Virus record (IMG/VR): IMGVR_UViG_3300021139_000043
Coordinates: 1 to 40,612 of that record
Reading direction: 5' to 3' (one strand)
Source of the DNA: a virus
DNA length: 40,612 nt
Made by a program: the position numbers and the translations under genes. The notes under the pieces are model-generated. The model saw only the letters and a program-made list of their open reading frames with translations. It made no database searches and was not told the DNA's origin. Below are positions 3,392-10,925 of the stretch, piece after piece; position 1 is the first letter of the stretch, and each line of letters begins with the position of its first letter.

Positions 3392-3613
3392 CTATTGTTC
3401 CCATTCTGGTAAAAAATCACATTTAGTACAAAATTTTAGTAAACATGAATCTTGATCAAACGCATGATCGCATGAGTTTTTAGGATCTAAATTATAAATA
3501 TCATTAAAAATATTTTGCGTAATTAATTCTATAGCTGATGACTCCAAATTATAACTAACAAGATTACTTTTAATAACTGATTTTATTTTAGTATTCAGTT
3601 CATCCCGTGTCAT
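3392..3613 (-). CDS. Hypothetical protein with a Cys/His cluster, 73 aa
   Basis: A leftward gene with AGGGAGATAAT before its ATG. The first 45 residues look helical (MTRDELNTKIKSVIKSNLVS...). The C-terminus holds SCDHAFDQDSC followed by FCTKCD, a CxH...C...CxxC cluster like a small zinc knuckle. The layout, a helical N-terminus ending in a Cys knuckle, parallels the FTKEEL-type genes at 7380-7801. It is the first gene of the leftward unit opposite the recombination operon. Function unknown. Confidence 0.6.
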   Translation of the reverse strand: MTRDELNTKIKSVIKSNLVSYNLESSAIELITQNIFNDIYNLDPKNSCDHAFDQDSCLLKFCTKCDFLPEWEQ

Positions 3614-3719: not shown

Positions 3720-4613
3720 ATGACACAGTTTTTAAATGGGGTACATGCTATCAGTAGCGAAGCTTATCATGCTAGTGATGCTATATCGCGCAGTAACTTA
3801 ATGGATTTTAGGAGAACACCATATCATTATTGGTACAATAAGTTAAGCGGATTAGCAGAAACAAAAGAACCTACACCAGCAATGATTTTAGGTGAATTGG
3901 TTCATACCGCAATATTAGAACCACAAGAACTATCAAACAGATTTTGGATTTATCCCGAACTTGATAAATTGCCAGAAGTTGGATTATTAAAAGATTTGGG
4001 GCGAGCGGAATATGATAGACAAAAAGCAGAGCGCGAAAAACAATCTTACATAAATAAAGAAGCTCTTGCGGCATTCGAACGCAATTCAGCAGGTAAAACT
4101 ATCATTAAAAGTGAAGATTTAAAAATCGCTAGTCTTATGGCTGAATCAGTTAGCAATCATGAAATAGCACAATCTATTTTGAAAGATTCTAAAATAGAAC
4201 AATCTATTTTTTTTACTCATGAACAAACAGGTATTCAATGTAAAGCACGACCAGACATTTGGAAAGGTCATATAGTTGGCGATTTAAAAACAACCGATGA
4301 CGCAAGTTATAGAGGTTTTCAACGTTCAGCAATTGATTACGGCTATTTTATTCAAGCTGGCATGATGGATTGTGCTTTAAAATCTTTAGGTTTAGAAATG
4401 AATGCTTTTGTGATAATTGCTGTTGAAAAAAAACGGCCTAACATGGTTGCAATATACACGTTAGATATACAAGCCATAGATTACGGAATTATGCTTTTTA
4501 ATAAATTAATGTGGGGTGTTGCTGAATGTATGGAAAAAAACGAATGGCCAGGATATGAAACAAAGTTTTTAAATGTACCGGCGTGGGCTTTGAACGATCA
4601 ACAGGAGATATAA
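3720..4613 (+). CDS. RecE/exonuclease VIII-like PD-(D/E)XK nuclease
   Basis: A 297-residue protein matching the phage PDDEXK exonuclease family (DUF3799, RecE C-terminal-like). Visible motifs in order: GELVHTAIL with His62, Glu160 in KIEQSIFF, KARPDI with Asp179, the catalytic VGDLKTT (Asp188, Lys190), and QAGMMD with Gln212. It should resect double-stranded DNA 5' to 3', leaving 3' overhangs for the annealase encoded 4 bases downstream. AAGGAG lies 8-9 bases before the start. The pair makes this phage independent of host RecBCD/RecA for end joining and probably for circularising or concatemerising its genome. Confidence 0.9.
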   Translation: MTQFLNGVHAISSEAYHASDAISRSNLMDFRRTPYHYWYNKLSGLAETKEPTPAMILGELVHTAILEPQELSNRFWIYPELDKLPEVGLLKDLGRAEYDRQKAEREKQSYINKEALAAFERNSAGKTIIKSEDLKIASLMAESVSNHEIAQSILKDSKIEQSIFFTHEQTGIQCKARPDIWKGHIVGDLKTTDDASYRGFQRSAIDYGYFIQAGMMDCALKSLGLEMNAFVIIAVEKKRPNMVAIYTLDIQAIDYGIMLFNKLMWGVAECMEKNEWPGYETKFLNVPAWALNDQQEI

Positions 4614-4616
4614 AAA

Positions 4617-5537
4617 ATGTCAAACGAATTAACAACAAATGTTAATCAACAAAACTTAGTTAAAGTAACCGATGACAACAGCTTGTTTTCATCTAAAAAC
4701 TTTAAACATTATCACGAAATGGCCCAGCATTTAGCAAAATCCACCATGATACCTAAAGGTTATAGTGGTAAACCAATGGATATACTTATAGCCATGGAGA
4801 TGGGGGCGCAATTAGGCATACCAACAATTCAAGCTATTCAAGATATAGCAGTTATTAACGGTAAACCTTGCATGTATGGTGATGGTCTTTTGGCTGTTGT
4901 TCAGGGACACCCACATTATGAATATATAACCGAAACACCAATATTAGAAAGTAATAAAATCATAGGGTATCAATGCGTAGTTAAACGAAAAGGACATCCC
5001 GAGCATATTAGTGTATTTACCGCAGAACAAGCCAAAAAAGCCGGTTTATGGGGCAAACAAGGGCCTTGGTCTCAATATCCCGAAAGAATGCTACAAATGC
5101 GTGCTAGAGGTTATGCGTTGCGTGATACTTTTGCCGATGCTTTGCGAGGCATTAAACCAGCAGAAGAAGCTAGGGATTATATTGACGTTACGCCAGCAGC
5201 CAAAAAACCAGCTAAAGATTTTATTAATGACTTAGTTAAAAAGCCTATTAACGAACCAGTAAAAGTAATTGCCGACGTTGCGGAAATTGCGGATGTAGAA
5301 CAGCCAAGAAACAGACTTGATTTGATGGCTTATGTTGAAGAATTATTAATCTCTGTTGAATTTCCTCAAGAAAGATTAGTAAAAGCTCTAAAGCATTATA
5401 ATGTTTCTGATTTAGAAAATCTTACAAAAGACCAGTTGTTCGATTTTTCCTTAATACTTCAACGTGAATTATTAAAAAAATCTGAAGAGTTTTCAGCTCA
5501 AGAAATAGATCCAGAAACCGGGGAGGTTATCCAATGA
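4617..5537 (+). CDS. recT: RecT-family single-strand annealing protein
   Basis: A 306-residue RecT homologue. Characteristic blocks: IAMEMGAQLGIPTIQAIQDI, AVINGKPCMYGDGLLAVVQ, and the C-terminal core PWSQYPERMLQMRARGYALR followed by DTFADALRGI. It anneals complementary single strands made by the upstream exonuclease. The last roughly 110 residues (after RDYIDVT) are a more variable, Pro/Lys-rich then helical extension ending ETGEVIQ. The start is 4 bases after the exonuclease stop, with GGAGATA at the expected distance. A 19-codon reading starts inside the stop (5534-5593) but looks incidental. Confidence 0.93.
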   Translation: MSNELTTNVNQQNLVKVTDDNSLFSSKNFKHYHEMAQHLAKSTMIPKGYSGKPMDILIAMEMGAQLGIPTIQAIQDIAVINGKPCMYGDGLLAVVQGHPHYEYITETPILESNKIIGYQCVVKRKGHPEHISVFTAEQAKKAGLWGKQGPWSQYPERMLQMRARGYALRDTFADALRGIKPAEEARDYIDVTPAAKKPAKDFINDLVKKPINEPVKVIADVAEIADVEQPRNRLDLMAYVEELLISVEFPQERLVKALKHYNVSDLENLTKDQLFDFSLILQRELLKKSEEFSAQEIDPETGEVIQ

Positions 5538-6314: not shown

Positions 6315-6437
6315 ATGGATAGATTAGAACGAAGATTAATCAAAAAATATCATGAAAAAGGTTTTGTTGCTATTGTTGAAAAAACTCAAAACCAAAAAAG
6401 AAGAAAAGTTAAGCTTATACCAAAGGACAAAAAATAA
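6315..6437 (+). CDS. Very basic small protein, 40 aa
   Basis: MDRLERRLIKKYHEKGFVAI then QNQKRRKVKLIPKDKK: about a third Lys/Arg, suggesting nucleic-acid binding. Start immediately after the preceding stop; its TAA overlaps the ATG of the lipoprotein gene at 6437 (TAATG). The tight coupling on both sides supports a real gene despite its size. Confidence 0.5.
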   Translation: MDRLERRLIKKYHEKGFVAIVEKTQNQKRRKVKLIPKDKK

Positions 6438-6778
6438 TGAAAAAATCAGGAGCAATTTTATTATCATTAATTTTGATTGGTTGTGATTCTTCTCCCCCTC
6501 CCCCGCCACAACAAAATAATGAACAATCACAAACATTGCCATTACCACCGCAACAATCAGGAGGGGAGGGCCATAATTTTGTAGATACTATGGCTAATTC
6601 TGCTATTGCTGGAGCTTCTGCCGGTGCTGCTGGAGCTATCGCTCATAACATGGTTAATAGGGCTTTTGAAAGAAGAGCCGAAAGAAAAGAATCATTGCAT
6701 GTTTACCATCCGCCAACCTATAGACCAGCTCCAAGACCTGTATATCGTCCTAGATATACTTTTAGGGGTAGAAGATGA
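6437..6778 (+). CDS. Proline-rich lipoprotein with a glycine zipper
   Basis: A 113-residue protein with a type II signal: MKKSG, hydrophobic core, lipobox LIGC (Cys16). After the Cys comes a Pro-run (SSPPPPP), a Gln/Pro linker, then a Gly/Ala-rich stretch ANSAIAGASAGAAGAIAHNM that looks like a membrane-inserting glycine zipper. The C-terminus is Arg/Pro/Tyr-rich (RPAPRPVYRPRYTFRGRR). The Pro-rich lipoprotein design recalls Rz1 spanins, but the zipper and basic tail are closer to envelope stress or exclusion lipoproteins. No Rz partner is adjacent and the endolysin is 31 kb away. The role is unresolved. Confidence 0.65.
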   Translation: MKKSGAILLSLILIGCDSSPPPPPQQNNEQSQTLPLPPQQSGGEGHNFVDTMANSAIAGASAGAAGAIAHNMVNRAFERRAERKESLHVYHPPTYRPAPRPVYRPRYTFRGRR

Positions 6779-6817: not shown

Positions 6818-7003
6818 ATGATTATTAGCGAAAAACAAATAATGCAACTGATTAAAATAGCGTATGACCATTTGAGTATTATAAGTTTAGATATTGAAGA
6901 CGATGACAATGCTCGTTCTTGTTACTCGTCGTTATCATCTTTTTTAATGGAAATTTCATCCCAACAATCTCAAGAATTAAAGGAAATAAAGAAAGATGAA
7001 TGA
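6818..7003 (+). CDS. Hypothetical helical protein, 61 aa (ISEKQ type)
   Basis: MIISEKQIMQLIKIAYDHLS, an acidic NAR segment, then SFLMEISSQQSQELKEIKK. Two or three helices with a conserved-looking QQSQELK tail. I believe similar small phage proteins beginning ISEKQ exist in other gammaproteobacterial phages, but I cannot confirm it here. It overlaps the next gene by 8 bases. Unknown function. Confidence 0.6.
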   Translation: MIISEKQIMQLIKIAYDHLSIISLDIEDDDNARSCYSSLSSFLMEISSQQSQELKEIKKDE

Positions 7004-7379
7004 TTTCACGAAAGAAGAATTAAACGACATTTTTTTAATGGCGTGTTTTTTTGCCGGATTTCCAGAAAATCAAACAGAAAAACAATCCAAAATAATGCTT
7101 AAAATCCAATCCATGATTGAAAACTATCCACTACAAGATAGTTCTAAATTTAACCATAAAACACCAATAGGTGCGGTTATACCCTTCCCTTATGAATCAT
7201 TGTCAGAAGCAATGAAATTACCTTATTTATTTCCAGATGGAAGGGCGATATCTCGATCGAAATATACCGAATTGTTTGATGTTTTAGGTACTATTTATGG
7301 TGAAGGAGATAGAAAAACTACTTTTAATATACCAAATTTTCCAGGATATATTATTAAAGCATTACCTACTGAGGATTAA
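6996..7379 (+). CDS. FTKEEL module fused to a tail-collar-like domain
   Basis: A 127-residue protein in two parts. Residues 1-45 (MNDFTKEELNDIF... KIQSMIENY) form the helical FTKEEL module that recurs in the next two genes. Residues 55-121 read PIGAVIPFPYESL, a glycine-poor linker, FPDGRAISRSKYTELFDVLG and TIYGEGDRKTTFNIPNF. That is the pattern of the phage Tail_Collar domain (pfam PF07484), normally found in fibre proteins such as this phage's own at 30937. Finding it in the early region, attached to a regulatory-looking module, is unusual. It might be a decoy or receptor-related protein, or a recombination product between a fibre gene and a FTKEEL gene. Confidence 0.7.
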   Translation: MNDFTKEELNDIFLMACFFAGFPENQTEKQSKIMLKIQSMIENYPLQDSSKFNHKTPIGAVIPFPYESLSEAMKLPYLFPDGRAISRSKYTELFDVLGTIYGEGDRKTTFNIPNFPGYIIKALPTED

Positions 7380-7496
7380 ATGATGAATGACTTCACGAAA
7401 GAAGAGCTAATTTGTATTAGAGATTACCTAGTTGTTCCTGAATCCGATGAAAAAAAAAGAATTATCTATAGCGCATACCATAAATTAAATCCATGA
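7380..7496 (+). CDS. FTKEEL module, short copy
   Basis: 38 codons from ATG 7380 (or 37 from 7383): MNDFTKEELICIRDYLVVPE...YHKLNP. The first nine residues are nearly identical to the preceding collar fusion (MNDFTKEEL), so the two are paralogues. Compared with the sister copies, the frame shifts just before the KIQSMIDNY segment, which continues in a different frame as the ORF at 7493. The reading stops at TGA 7494-7496, overlapping that ATG (ATGA). Either a split pair under coupling or a decayed gene. Confidence 0.5.
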   Translation: MMNDFTKEELICIRDYLVVPESDEKKRIIYSAYHKLNP

Positions 7497-7606
7497 TTGA
7501 TAACTATTGCGAGCATGATTTAGCTATAGATTGCGAATCAAATAATTGTGAATGTATAGCTGTTGAATGCTTCAATTGCGATAAAAAATTTAAACGGTGG
7601 TCTTAA
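7493..7606 (+). CDS. Cys-rich tail of the FTKEEL family (37 aa)
   Basis: MIDNYCEHDLAIDCESNNCE then CIAVECFNCDKKFKRWS. The MIDNY start corresponds to the SMIENY/SIIDNY end of the FTKEEL module. The rest is a Cys/His knuckle (C-x-H ... C ... C-x-C ... CxxC). It overlaps the upstream ORF by 4 bases (ATGA) and the next by one. It is probably the second half of a protein that is continuous in other phages; here it can be made only by restart or a -1 shift. Confidence 0.45.
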   Translation: MIDNYCEHDLAIDCESNNCECIAVECFNCDKKFKRWS

Positions 7607-7761
7607 TGGATATTTTTACAAAAGAAGAGTTACAGCATATTTTAAAAATTATGGATAATTGTTATTTGGATTTATGCGGTCAAAAGCTTGGCAGAAAAAT
7701 TCAATCTATAATTGATAATTATGATAACCATAACGAGAATAACCTCGAATTCGTGTGCTAA
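7606..7761 (+). CDS. FTKEEL module, third copy
   Basis: 51 residues: MDIFTKEELQHILKIMDNCY, then LDLCGQKLGRKIQSIIDNYD and NHNENNLEFVC. FTKEEL and KIQSIIDNY align with the two copies upstream, giving three tandem paralogues in 770 bp. It starts on the last base of the preceding stop. It ends just before a CAKCG knuckle that lies in the +1 frame (see 7721), so the knuckle is again detached from the helical module. Unknown function. Confidence 0.55.
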   Translation: MDIFTKEELQHILKIMDNCYLDLCGQKLGRKIQSIIDNYDNHNENNLEFVC

Positions 7762-7801
7762 ATGCGGCGTATTATTTAATAAAGATGCACATTTAAGCTA
7801 A
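7721..7801 (+). CDS. Detached CxxC tail (26 aa)
   Basis: A reading from ATG 7721 in the +1 frame of the third FTKEEL copy encodes MITITRITSNSCAKCGVLFN and ends KDAHLS. The CAKCG knuckle looks coding, but the first residues are unlike anything natural, so an independent gene is doubtful. More likely it is the original C-terminus, reached by frameshifting or lost by mutation. Confidence 0.25.
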   Translation: MITITRITSNSCAKCGVLFNKDAHLS

Positions 7802-8306: not shown

Positions 8307-9314
8307 ATGACAAAATGCAACGCCACAGCTACATTTAATCGCGATTTTATCTATTCAATTCCCTCAAAAATACTTTTCAATTATGACTTAACTTTTTTAG
8401 AAATCAAAGTTTATATGATTATTCGTTCGTTTATGGATACGACCGGAGATTGTTATCCTAGCAATAATTGGATAGCTGAAATATGCAAAGTTGAAAAGAG
8501 ATCGATCATTCGGGCCATTAATTCACTTGTGGATAAGTCGTTAATAGAGCGAATAACTATAAAAAATCAACGCTATTTGGTCATAAAAAGAACCCCTTTA
8601 CCCGATGAAGGGGTGACATTTCCGTCACCCCCCAGTGACACTGGTGTCACCCCCCCCCGTGACACGGATGTCACCCAATTAGATCAAAATAATATTAATA
8701 CAAATATATTAACTGCTAGTAACAGCAACATAGATTTTTCTGATTGCAAAAAAACAGAATTAGAGGTTTTACAAAATACCTCTGAGAAATTGGAATTTGA
8801 GAAGAAACAAAAAGAATTTAAAAAGATTTGCCTTGAAAACTATCAGTGCCAAGAAATATACAAAGCGCGGTTTTCTGAGTTTGATATAAGCTTAGAGCAA
8901 CTCTATCAAGATTGTTGTGATTACTGGAGTCAAAAAAATCAGTTAGTATTTGTTCAGAGATTTTTAGCTCATTTGAGAAAAGCTCCGCTTAACAGTTACC
9001 AAAAGAAAAACACGCCATTAGCGCAAAAAACATCAATTACCCCCGACGAAGACAGGTTGATTCAAGAATATTGTTCATTAAAAAGGGCGAAAAGAAAACC
9101 ATCGGAAGAATTGAACAATAAAATTATAAATTTGGTTTTGAGATTGAAAGCATGTCATTTACCCAAGGCAAAAGAGGCATTAGCGGCTATAGATAAAGCG
9201 AACGAGATATTTGATAGCCGTATCTACACGTCATTGATTAGCGAGGCTAAAAACAGGGTTAAATCGGCTCAGGCAGATAATTGTTTAAAAGCCATGAAGG
9301 ACGCTCTTAAATGA
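8307..9314 (+). CDS. Lambda-O-like replication initiator with winged helix
   Basis: A 335-residue protein. Residues 15-95 read as a winged helix-turn-helix (LTFLEIKVYMIIRSFMDTTG, CYPSNNWIAEICKVEKRSII, RAINSLVDKSLIERI), the type found in phage O-like and plasmid initiators. Residues 99-127 are a Pro/Thr/Asp repeat (GVTFPSPPSDTGVTPP then RDTDVTQ) encoded by three DNA iterons, then a poly-Asn linker and a helical C-terminal half that would recruit the host helicase or loader. As in lambda, the origin lies inside the initiator gene. No helicase, primase or polymerase gene is evident, so the host replisome is needed. Confidence 0.8.
   Translation: MTKCNATATFNRDFIYSIPSKILFNYDLTFLEIKVYMIIRSFMDTTGDCYPSNNWIAEICKVEKRSIIRAINSLVDKSLIERITIKNQRYLVIKRTPLPDEGVTFPSPPSDTGVTPPRDTDVTQLDQNNINTNILTASNSNIDFSDCKKTELEVLQNTSEKLEFEKKQKEFKKICLENYQCQEIYKARFSEFDISLEQLYQDCCDYWSQKNQLVFVQRFLAHLRKAPLNSYQKKNTPLAQKTSITPDEDRLIQEYCSLKRAKRKPSEELNNKIINLVLRLKACHLPKAKEALAAIDKANEIFDSRIYTSLISEAKNRVKSAQADNCLKAMKDALK
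8613..8712. other. ori: Predicted replication origin: three dyad iterons plus AT-rich region
   Basis: Three 16-bp dyads share the form GTGACA-N4-YGTCAC: GTGACATTTCCGTCAC (8613-8628), GTGACACTGGTGTCAC (8635-8650) and GTGACACGGATGTCAC (8659-8674). Their centres are 22 and 24 bp apart, about two helical turns. An AT-rich stretch (about 8677-8712) follows at once. In lambda, O dimers bind dyad iterons inside O and melt the adjacent AT-rich DNA; the layout here is the same. Confidence 0.75.
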
Positions 9315-10267: not shown

Positions 10268-10489
10268 ATGCTAGGTTCTGTAAAATGGTTTAATGATGCA
10301 AAAGGTTATGGGTTCATAATTGCAGGTGTTGAAAGTTATTTTGTGCATTTTAAAGAAATTTTAGGCGAGCCAGGATTTAAGACATTAAAACCAGGGGACG
10401 AAGTAGAATTCACCCCCTCTAAATCCGAAAAAGGATTAGTTGCTAAAAACGTTCGATTAGTGAACCATATAAGCGATGAACAAGATTGA
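10268..10489 (+). CDS. CspA-like cold-shock domain protein
   Basis: A 73-residue single cold-shock domain: GSVKWFNDAKGYGFI carries RNP1 (KGYGFI), and ESYFVHFKEI is the RNP2 region (usual form DVFVHFS). It ends with EFTPSKSEKGLVAKNVRLV, matching the family's last strands. Such proteins bind single-stranded RNA or DNA, melt secondary structure and act as antiterminators or RNA chaperones. It lies between the structured island and the CsrA operon. Compared with CspA, RNP2 has Tyr for the first aromatic and the loop is slightly altered, but the binding face looks intact. Confidence 0.9.
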   Translation: MLGSVKWFNDAKGYGFIIAGVESYFVHFKEILGEPGFKTLKPGDEVEFTPSKSEKGLVAKNVRLVNHISDEQD

Positions 10490-10512: not shown

Positions 10513-10743
10513 TCATATTTCTTCGATGTTAGACAGTTTTGATTCTATTTTTTCGCATGAGTCACGTACAATTTTGTTTAATTGTTTTCCAAAAAAATCA
10601 TCAATTGTGGTAACATATACGGCGGCTATCATTTGTTCGTCTTGCTTTCCCATATTTAATTTATCTCGAATTGTTTCTATATATTCTTTCATTCCGTCTA
10701 GCGCATTATTTGCCCATTCTTTAAATATTTCTTTTGAATCCAT
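10513..10743 (-). CDS. Hypothetical helical protein coupled to CsrA, 76 aa
   Basis: A leftward gene whose ATG shares one base with the stop of csrA (10743), so the two are co-translated. The product ([20 protein letters not shown] ... DDFFGKQLNKIVRDSCEKIE) is acidic and entirely helical. A small protein always made with CsrA could be a modulator, as FliW antagonises CsrA in other bacteria, but there is no sequence resemblance to FliW. It is the last gene of the leftward operon. Confidence 0.6.
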   Translation of the reverse strand: MDSKEIFKEWANNALDGMKEYIETIRDKLNMGKQDEQMIAAVYVTTIDDFFGKQLNKIVRDSCEKIESKLSNIEEI

Positions 10744-10925
10744 TAGCTAGCTCTCCTCAATTCTTCTTTTATTTTGTTATGAATTTCTTCTCGATGTATA
10801 ATAACATCCTTGGGAGCATCAAGCCCAAGTCTGATTTGATTTCCTTTGACACCTAAAACTGTTAATATAATTTCACCATCATTTATTATTAGTCTTTCGC
10901 CAATACGTCTTGTTAAAATTAACAT
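10743..10925 (-). CDS. csrA: CsrA/RsmA-family post-transcriptional regulator
   Basis: 60 residues, the normal CsrA length: [60 protein letters not shown]. The RNA-contacting LTRR (residues 4-7) and the IHREEI segment with Arg45 (E. coli Arg44) are intact, so it should bind GGA-containing hairpins and block ribosome access or change mRNA stability. AAGGAG precedes its ATG. It sits in a leftward operon after DUF7352 and before a coupled 76-aa gene. Close similarity to host-type CsrA suggests capture from a gammaproteobacterium. Confidence 0.95.

Follow-up and report, generated by a model that had tools for sequence, protein, structure and literature searches.

The window, the whole stretch of DNA that was analysed, consists of one IMG/VR virus record of 40,612 bases from a tailed phage, whose large terminase shows 61% identity to its counterpart in Burkholderia phage Magia. 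Its early region encodes a nuclease and RecT, followed by a series of small genes that includes three genes with an FTKEEL module and then by a helix-turn-helix gene at 8307 (Table 1). The initial annotation had reported that the same module opens three consecutive genes, and (M)NDFTKEEL or MDIFTKEEL was indeed found at all three starts. Profile matches of copies 1 and 3, together with more than 100 relatives, placed the module far beyond chance. A search of INPHARED phages with 2 kb of DNA around the array gave no match, a search of viral contigs with a replication-protein query gave no relative, and Rfam gave no hit.

Table 1. Features of the early region and of the three FTKEEL copies in the window.
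Feature	Position	Strand	Evidence or remark
DUF3799/PDDEXK nuclease (exonuclease candidate)	3720-4613		early region, upstream of FTKEEL genes
RecT	4617-5537		early region, upstream of FTKEEL genes; E 2.7e-9
Copy 1: FTKEEL module and phage Tail Collar domain, 127 aa	6996-7379	+	ORF; module HMM E 1e-16; PF07484 E 5.2e-13
Copy 1, anchor A (MNDFTKEEL)	6996-7022	+	codon-conserved anchor
Copy 1, anchor B (KIQSMIENY)	7101-7127	+	DNA among the commonest anchor B haplotypes
Copy 1, Collar domain as swapped-in tail	7170-7352	+	match covers 1-56 of the 57 PF07484 profile positions
Copy 2, 5' part: anchor A (7383-7409) and middle; TGA in anchor B stops the frame	7380-7496	+	ORF, frame census
Copy 2, frame break: one base lost (net) within anchor B	7481-7494	+	sole overlap of the two open frames
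Copy 2, 3' part: (M)IDNYCEH and Cys-rich tail, other frame	7493-7606	+	ORF
Copy 3: unbroken module MDIFTKEEL ... KIQSIIDNYDNH, shortened tail	7606-7761	+	HMM E 4e-15; frames
Copy 3, anchor A	7606-7632	+	
Copy 3, anchor B	7696-7722	+	
Copy 3, 3' part: CAKCG knuckle, +1 frame	7712-7801	+	break within 7712-7758

Copy 1 is intact, with a collar domain serving as its tail. The Tail Collar fusion described from the sequence was corroborated by a near-complete match to PF07484 (residues 59-119; 49.2 bits against a curated cut-off of 24). Anchor A, variable middle and anchor B followed each other in one frame in copies 1 and 3, and copy 2 fitted the same plan apart from a one-base break. Because the IDNYCEH of the copy 2 knuckle sits in a second frame, the module is unbroken only in copies 1 and 3. 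Knuckles in other frames were recovered for copies 2 and 3, as annotated, and none of the three copies had an in-frame CxH...CxxC tail, owing to the collar domain in copy 1 and to frame breaks in copies 2 and 3. The Cys-rich tail of copy 2 was similar to tails that other members carry in frame (L219 scoring best, at 43).

Family members were collected from viral contigs by a scan with copy 1, a scan with an alignment of members, and degenerate DNA patterns for each anchor. For 43 anchor B loci identified by DNA pattern, an upstream in-frame A-like motif was found by pattern in 39 and by eye in the other four (FTKGEL, FKKYEL, FTKGEL, and FTKGDL). In total, 246 distinct full-length modules were obtained from about 123 viral contig groups. 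In these proteins of about 60-80 residues, two fixed sequences, MNDFTKEEL (anchor A) and KIQSMIDNYC[ED]H (anchor B), enclose a middle that varies and spans about 20-35 residues, and a tail comes after anchor B. An in-frame CxxC knuckle was usual, if not universal (201 of the 246 copies), and judged by its motif the CxH...CxxC knuckle probably binds zinc. AlphaFold2 predicted a two-helix hairpin (helices 6-18 and 25-39, pLDDT 77) with a less certain tail. Copies are arranged head to tail in tandem arrays of up to eight (L187), and 42 of 49 junctions between copies were 8- or 4-base overlaps, with the stop of one copy falling within the initial 8 bases of its successor (ATGA or ATGAATGA).

Pfam yielded no consistent match to the module, PHROGs only weak unnamed matches (best E 1.5e-4), and PDB and fold searches no relative and nothing informative. 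Structure matches in BFVD were annotated as 'uncharacterized protein, uncultured Caudovirales phage', which suggests that family members are already present in databases without annotation. A tblastn search of INPHARED with two members detected no convincing relative; at the sensitivity of tblastn, the family therefore looks absent from isolated phages. Two metagenome-assembled contigs, one labelled Planctomycetota and the other Bacteroidetes and both perhaps mis-binned phage, were the only hits of the genome scan. Within a partial coverage of the literature, no description of the family was found. The FTKEEL genes are an undescribed, widespread phage family of small early proteins.

For analysis of inheritance within the module, 190 modules were split into middle and tail, and all 17,955 pairs were compared. 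A part was counted as shared when its score lay well above shuffled controls, and clonal phages were not counted because exact duplicate proteins had been removed beforehand. A common middle was found in 73 pairs, a common tail in 136 and both in 4, with 0.55 expected under full independence. Clearly different tails accompanied a common middle in 43 pairs, and the reverse was observed in 124 pairs. The 99.99th percentile scores of the shuffled controls were 38 and 43, while observed scores reached 133 and 226. Tail sharing was also detected within single arrays (L232, 3729/4213; L200, 3995/6664; L183, 3626/4001). In DNA alignments of pairs with a shared middle, identity started at anchor A and ended at anchor B, and in those of pairs with a shared tail it extended from near anchor B through the next start anchor. 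Convergence, by which like tails or middles would have arisen independently, might be invoked for zinc knuckles, which are short and stereotyped, as tails are short and CxKCG is common among phage proteins. Scores so far above the shuffled controls refuted it for the high-scoring pairs, and DNA-level agreement over the whole length of the shared parts, up to the anchors, left it with hardly any likelihood at all.

Synonymous codons in the anchors of otherwise dissimilar genes agreed 1.26-1.31 times as often as expected, a measure unaffected by the choice of loci through anchor peptide patterns, which biases the conservation of the anchor protein sequence. Control families from the same contigs, at 25-85% identity, showed a synonymous agreement of 1.05-1.15 times expectation, and the anchors thus behave as shared DNA and not merely as shared protein. 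The pair counts and the DNA identity that stopped at the anchors therefore indicated that middles and tails are separate cassettes, shuffled at anchors whose codons are conserved. At the level of sequence comparison, their reassortment as separately inherited cassettes was shown both across and within arrays. Swapping of C-terminal partners, postulated in the initial annotation, was thereby found to be stronger than claimed; the accompanying notion of one fixed module did not hold as stated, only the two anchors being fixed while middles and tails both swap almost independently.

Some copies showed unusual joints. The copies at 1613-1984 and 1977-2270 in L235 represent a recent tandem duplication, in which the module and the first 15 tail residues are identical and the tails then differ, apparently an exchange caught in progress. 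At 4264 and 4400 in L187 and at 6924 in L025, no middle was present and anchor A led straight into Cys-rich tails or a stub, which resembles out-of-register use of the joint.

As for the C-terminal partners, whose tabulation had been proposed, most tails were zinc-knuckle types, alongside DUF551, the collar domain and several unnamed types. The KIYREEILPKYDNDPDKVPP tail, which is devoid of CxxC, recurred on two different middles, and one middle was combined with a zinc tail in L037 and with DUF551 in L271 (PF04448, E 1.3e-8). Since the collar domain of copy 1 sits at the junction used by other tails, the collar fusion represents one more tail exchange; it was detected only in the window record. 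A near-complete Collar domain could in principle make copy 1 a virion-attached or fibre-binding protein. However, this is a single case, located between RecT and the helix-turn-helix gene in the early region, and it lacks the structural gene position and fibre architecture of a tail fibre. The tail-fibre gene of the phage itself was not the source of the collar part (29 residues at 38% identity), and in the structure prediction of the fusion, which had been proposed and was run, this part was modelled poorly. A virion-associated role for copy 1 is accordingly regarded as quite improbable. In two other copies (L032, 5882-6130; L200, 6942-7178), a likely membrane-spanning segment after anchor A replaces the end of the module and the knuckle.

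The frame breaks in copies 2 and 3 had been placed near the same codons and interpreted as possible programmed recoding or coupled translation, and lack of conservation of the break in relatives had been named beforehand as evidence against that interpretation. In the census of anchor pairs, 185 of 186 copies ran straight from anchor A to anchor B, and the sole exception was copy 2 of the window. A break conserved in relatives, as in a programmed frameshift gene, was thus not observed, and the breaks are therefore private to the window record, which points to recent decay or a read error and not to conserved recoding. Nor do the two breaks coincide. The open frames of copy 2 overlap only within anchor B, which would fit the loss of one base, on balance, from an A-rich stretch, whereas copy 3 continues in frame through KIQSIIDNY and 12 more residues before a net gain of one base downstream of anchor B. 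In an earlier, smaller set, 31 modules lacked an in-frame CxxC, and an out-of-frame CxxC occurred in only 3 of these, those of the window included.

Under programmed recoding or termination-reinitiation, module and knuckle would arise either from a frameshift, as one product, or as a pair of peptides with coupled translation. The TGA stop of copy 2 overlaps the ATG of (S)MIDNY as ATGA, and an in-frame ATG, together with stops in the two other frames, is found in most anchor B sequences. Those stops, however, were no commoner than predicted from synonymous codon choice, no -1 slippery heptamer preceded the copy 2 break when the sequence was read by eye, and shifting by +1 at the stop of copy 3 would yield CKC instead of CxxC. 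With two breaks that differ in place and have opposite sign, and with the other 185 copies unbroken between the anchors, recoding is considered very improbable. Selection on anchor B for out-of-frame stops with a restart ATG was likewise rejected, given the synonymous expectation. Anchor A did show an excess of out-of-frame stops, with AAT in 98%, which fits its double use as the stop of the previous gene.

Copies 2 and 3 thus appear to be decaying members of the family, or to carry single-base read or assembly errors in the record. That both breaks are errors in a metagenome contig and not real mutations is a real possibility, held somewhat short of even. The copy 2 break lies within an A-rich run, its middle contains an A9 run, and the two breaks occur about 280 bases or less apart in one record, as opposed to none between the anchors of the 185 other copies. 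Independent coverage of this stretch was sought in an exact-match scan with a 21-base piece from the collar part of copy 1, which found no other record, and one near-identical contig (L090) ends before reaching the FTKEEL genes. Odd lone frame breaks in metagenome contigs should be compared with the family before recoding is claimed. The joint reading, in which an FTKEEL family shuffles its middles and tails and copies 2 and 3 have decayed, is considered rather probable.

Middles and tails may be exchanged when anchors anneal or recombine homologously as the phage replicates. Unequal exchange between tandem copies would at times change copy number, and foreign domains, such as the collar domain in the window and DUF551 elsewhere, might occasionally be captured. 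The swapped parts would contact changing host targets, in defence or take-over, with the anchors as scaffold. A role at a fast-changing host interface is tentatively suggested by how extremely the sequences vary around a fixed scaffold and by their early position, a proposal that is plausible without reaching an even chance. That the arrays form an evolved system for combinatorial diversity, with anchors as recombination joints that generate small zinc-knuckle proteins with new combinations of middles and tails, or occasionally with new domains, against changing host targets, is a more far-reaching proposal and is regarded as doubtful.

An alternative is a passive mosaic, with anchors kept for the fold, generic recombination of tandem or horizontally shared copies, and no selection for diversity. 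Mosaicism by phage recombinases at short homology is well documented (PMC3945230), and many copies of the family are truncated or degenerate. On the other hand, the 185 unbroken inter-anchor frames argue for function, anchor synonymous conservation exceeded that of other shared genes, and independent shuffling of two halves, combined with extreme variety, does not obviously follow from background turnover. A purely passive origin is therefore judged rather unlikely, if still to be taken seriously. If the swapped cassettes face host defences or machinery, the arrays would constitute a natural library of hundreds of middle-tail combinations, in which the anchors mark the joints.

The PeSL elements of T4-type phages are reportedly promoter stem-loops located between genes, whereas the joints of the FTKEEL genes are coding sequence inside each gene. 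In the plastic regions of T4-type phages, short repeated elements act as joints at which small genes are shuffled (Arbiol et al., 2010, as cited in PMC4503421), and they are to that extent comparable to the FTKEEL anchors. Variable segments flanked by repeats are also known from the DOMO system of HsdS, where they move by recombination at the repeats (x-TRD1-y-x-TRD2-y) and units are gained or lost (Furuta et al., 2011; PMC3077401). The variable segments of FTKEEL genes likewise lie between conserved sequences, but HsdS is one large protein with a known function in DNA recognition, whereas the FTKEEL genes are separate and small.

Fragment sharing between otherwise unrelated phage proteins through ongoing shuffling has been read as the outcome of an arms race, with emphasis on large receptor-binding, lysis and replication proteins; more cases were expected among unknown accessory proteins, a class that was not surveyed there (Smug et al., 2023; PMC10684548). 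FTKEEL shuffling is one case of such domain mosaicism, distinguished by genes of about 70 residues, tandem early arrays, two fixed anchors and exchange of both halves. The arrays also allow intragenic shuffling to be measured in very small accessory genes.

Rad52-like recombination (Red-beta, RecT, Erf) in temperate phages tolerates divergence and uses short identical runs, with a minimum of 23-27 bp for Red-beta (De Paepe et al., 2014; PMC3945230). With RecT encoded in the window, it is a candidate agent of FTKEEL shuffling. However, in a profile search RecT exceeded the cut-off in 11 of 36 carrier records, about a third, and ERF in none of the 36. Exact identity runs of at least 23 bases were present in only 3-11% of anchor pairs. 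Anchor identity thus lay mostly below the reported minimum, and exchange through the anchors would have to be infrequent or rely on relaxed annealing.

Several other small genes were observed in the window. A 73-residue gene on the minus strand (3392-3613) has a similar helical start and a C-D-H...CxxC end (DELN ... SCDH ... CTKC) without the FTKEEL anchor, and is possibly a distant relative of the family. At 6437-6778, a small lipoprotein-like gene of the early region gave a weak match to an Rz-like spanin in PHROG (E 0.0018). A homologue of CsrA, a global regulator of the host, is encoded at 10743-10925 on the minus strand (PF02599, E 2.4e-20), in the same region as a cold-shock domain protein at 10268-10489 on the plus strand (PF00313, E 5.5e-19).
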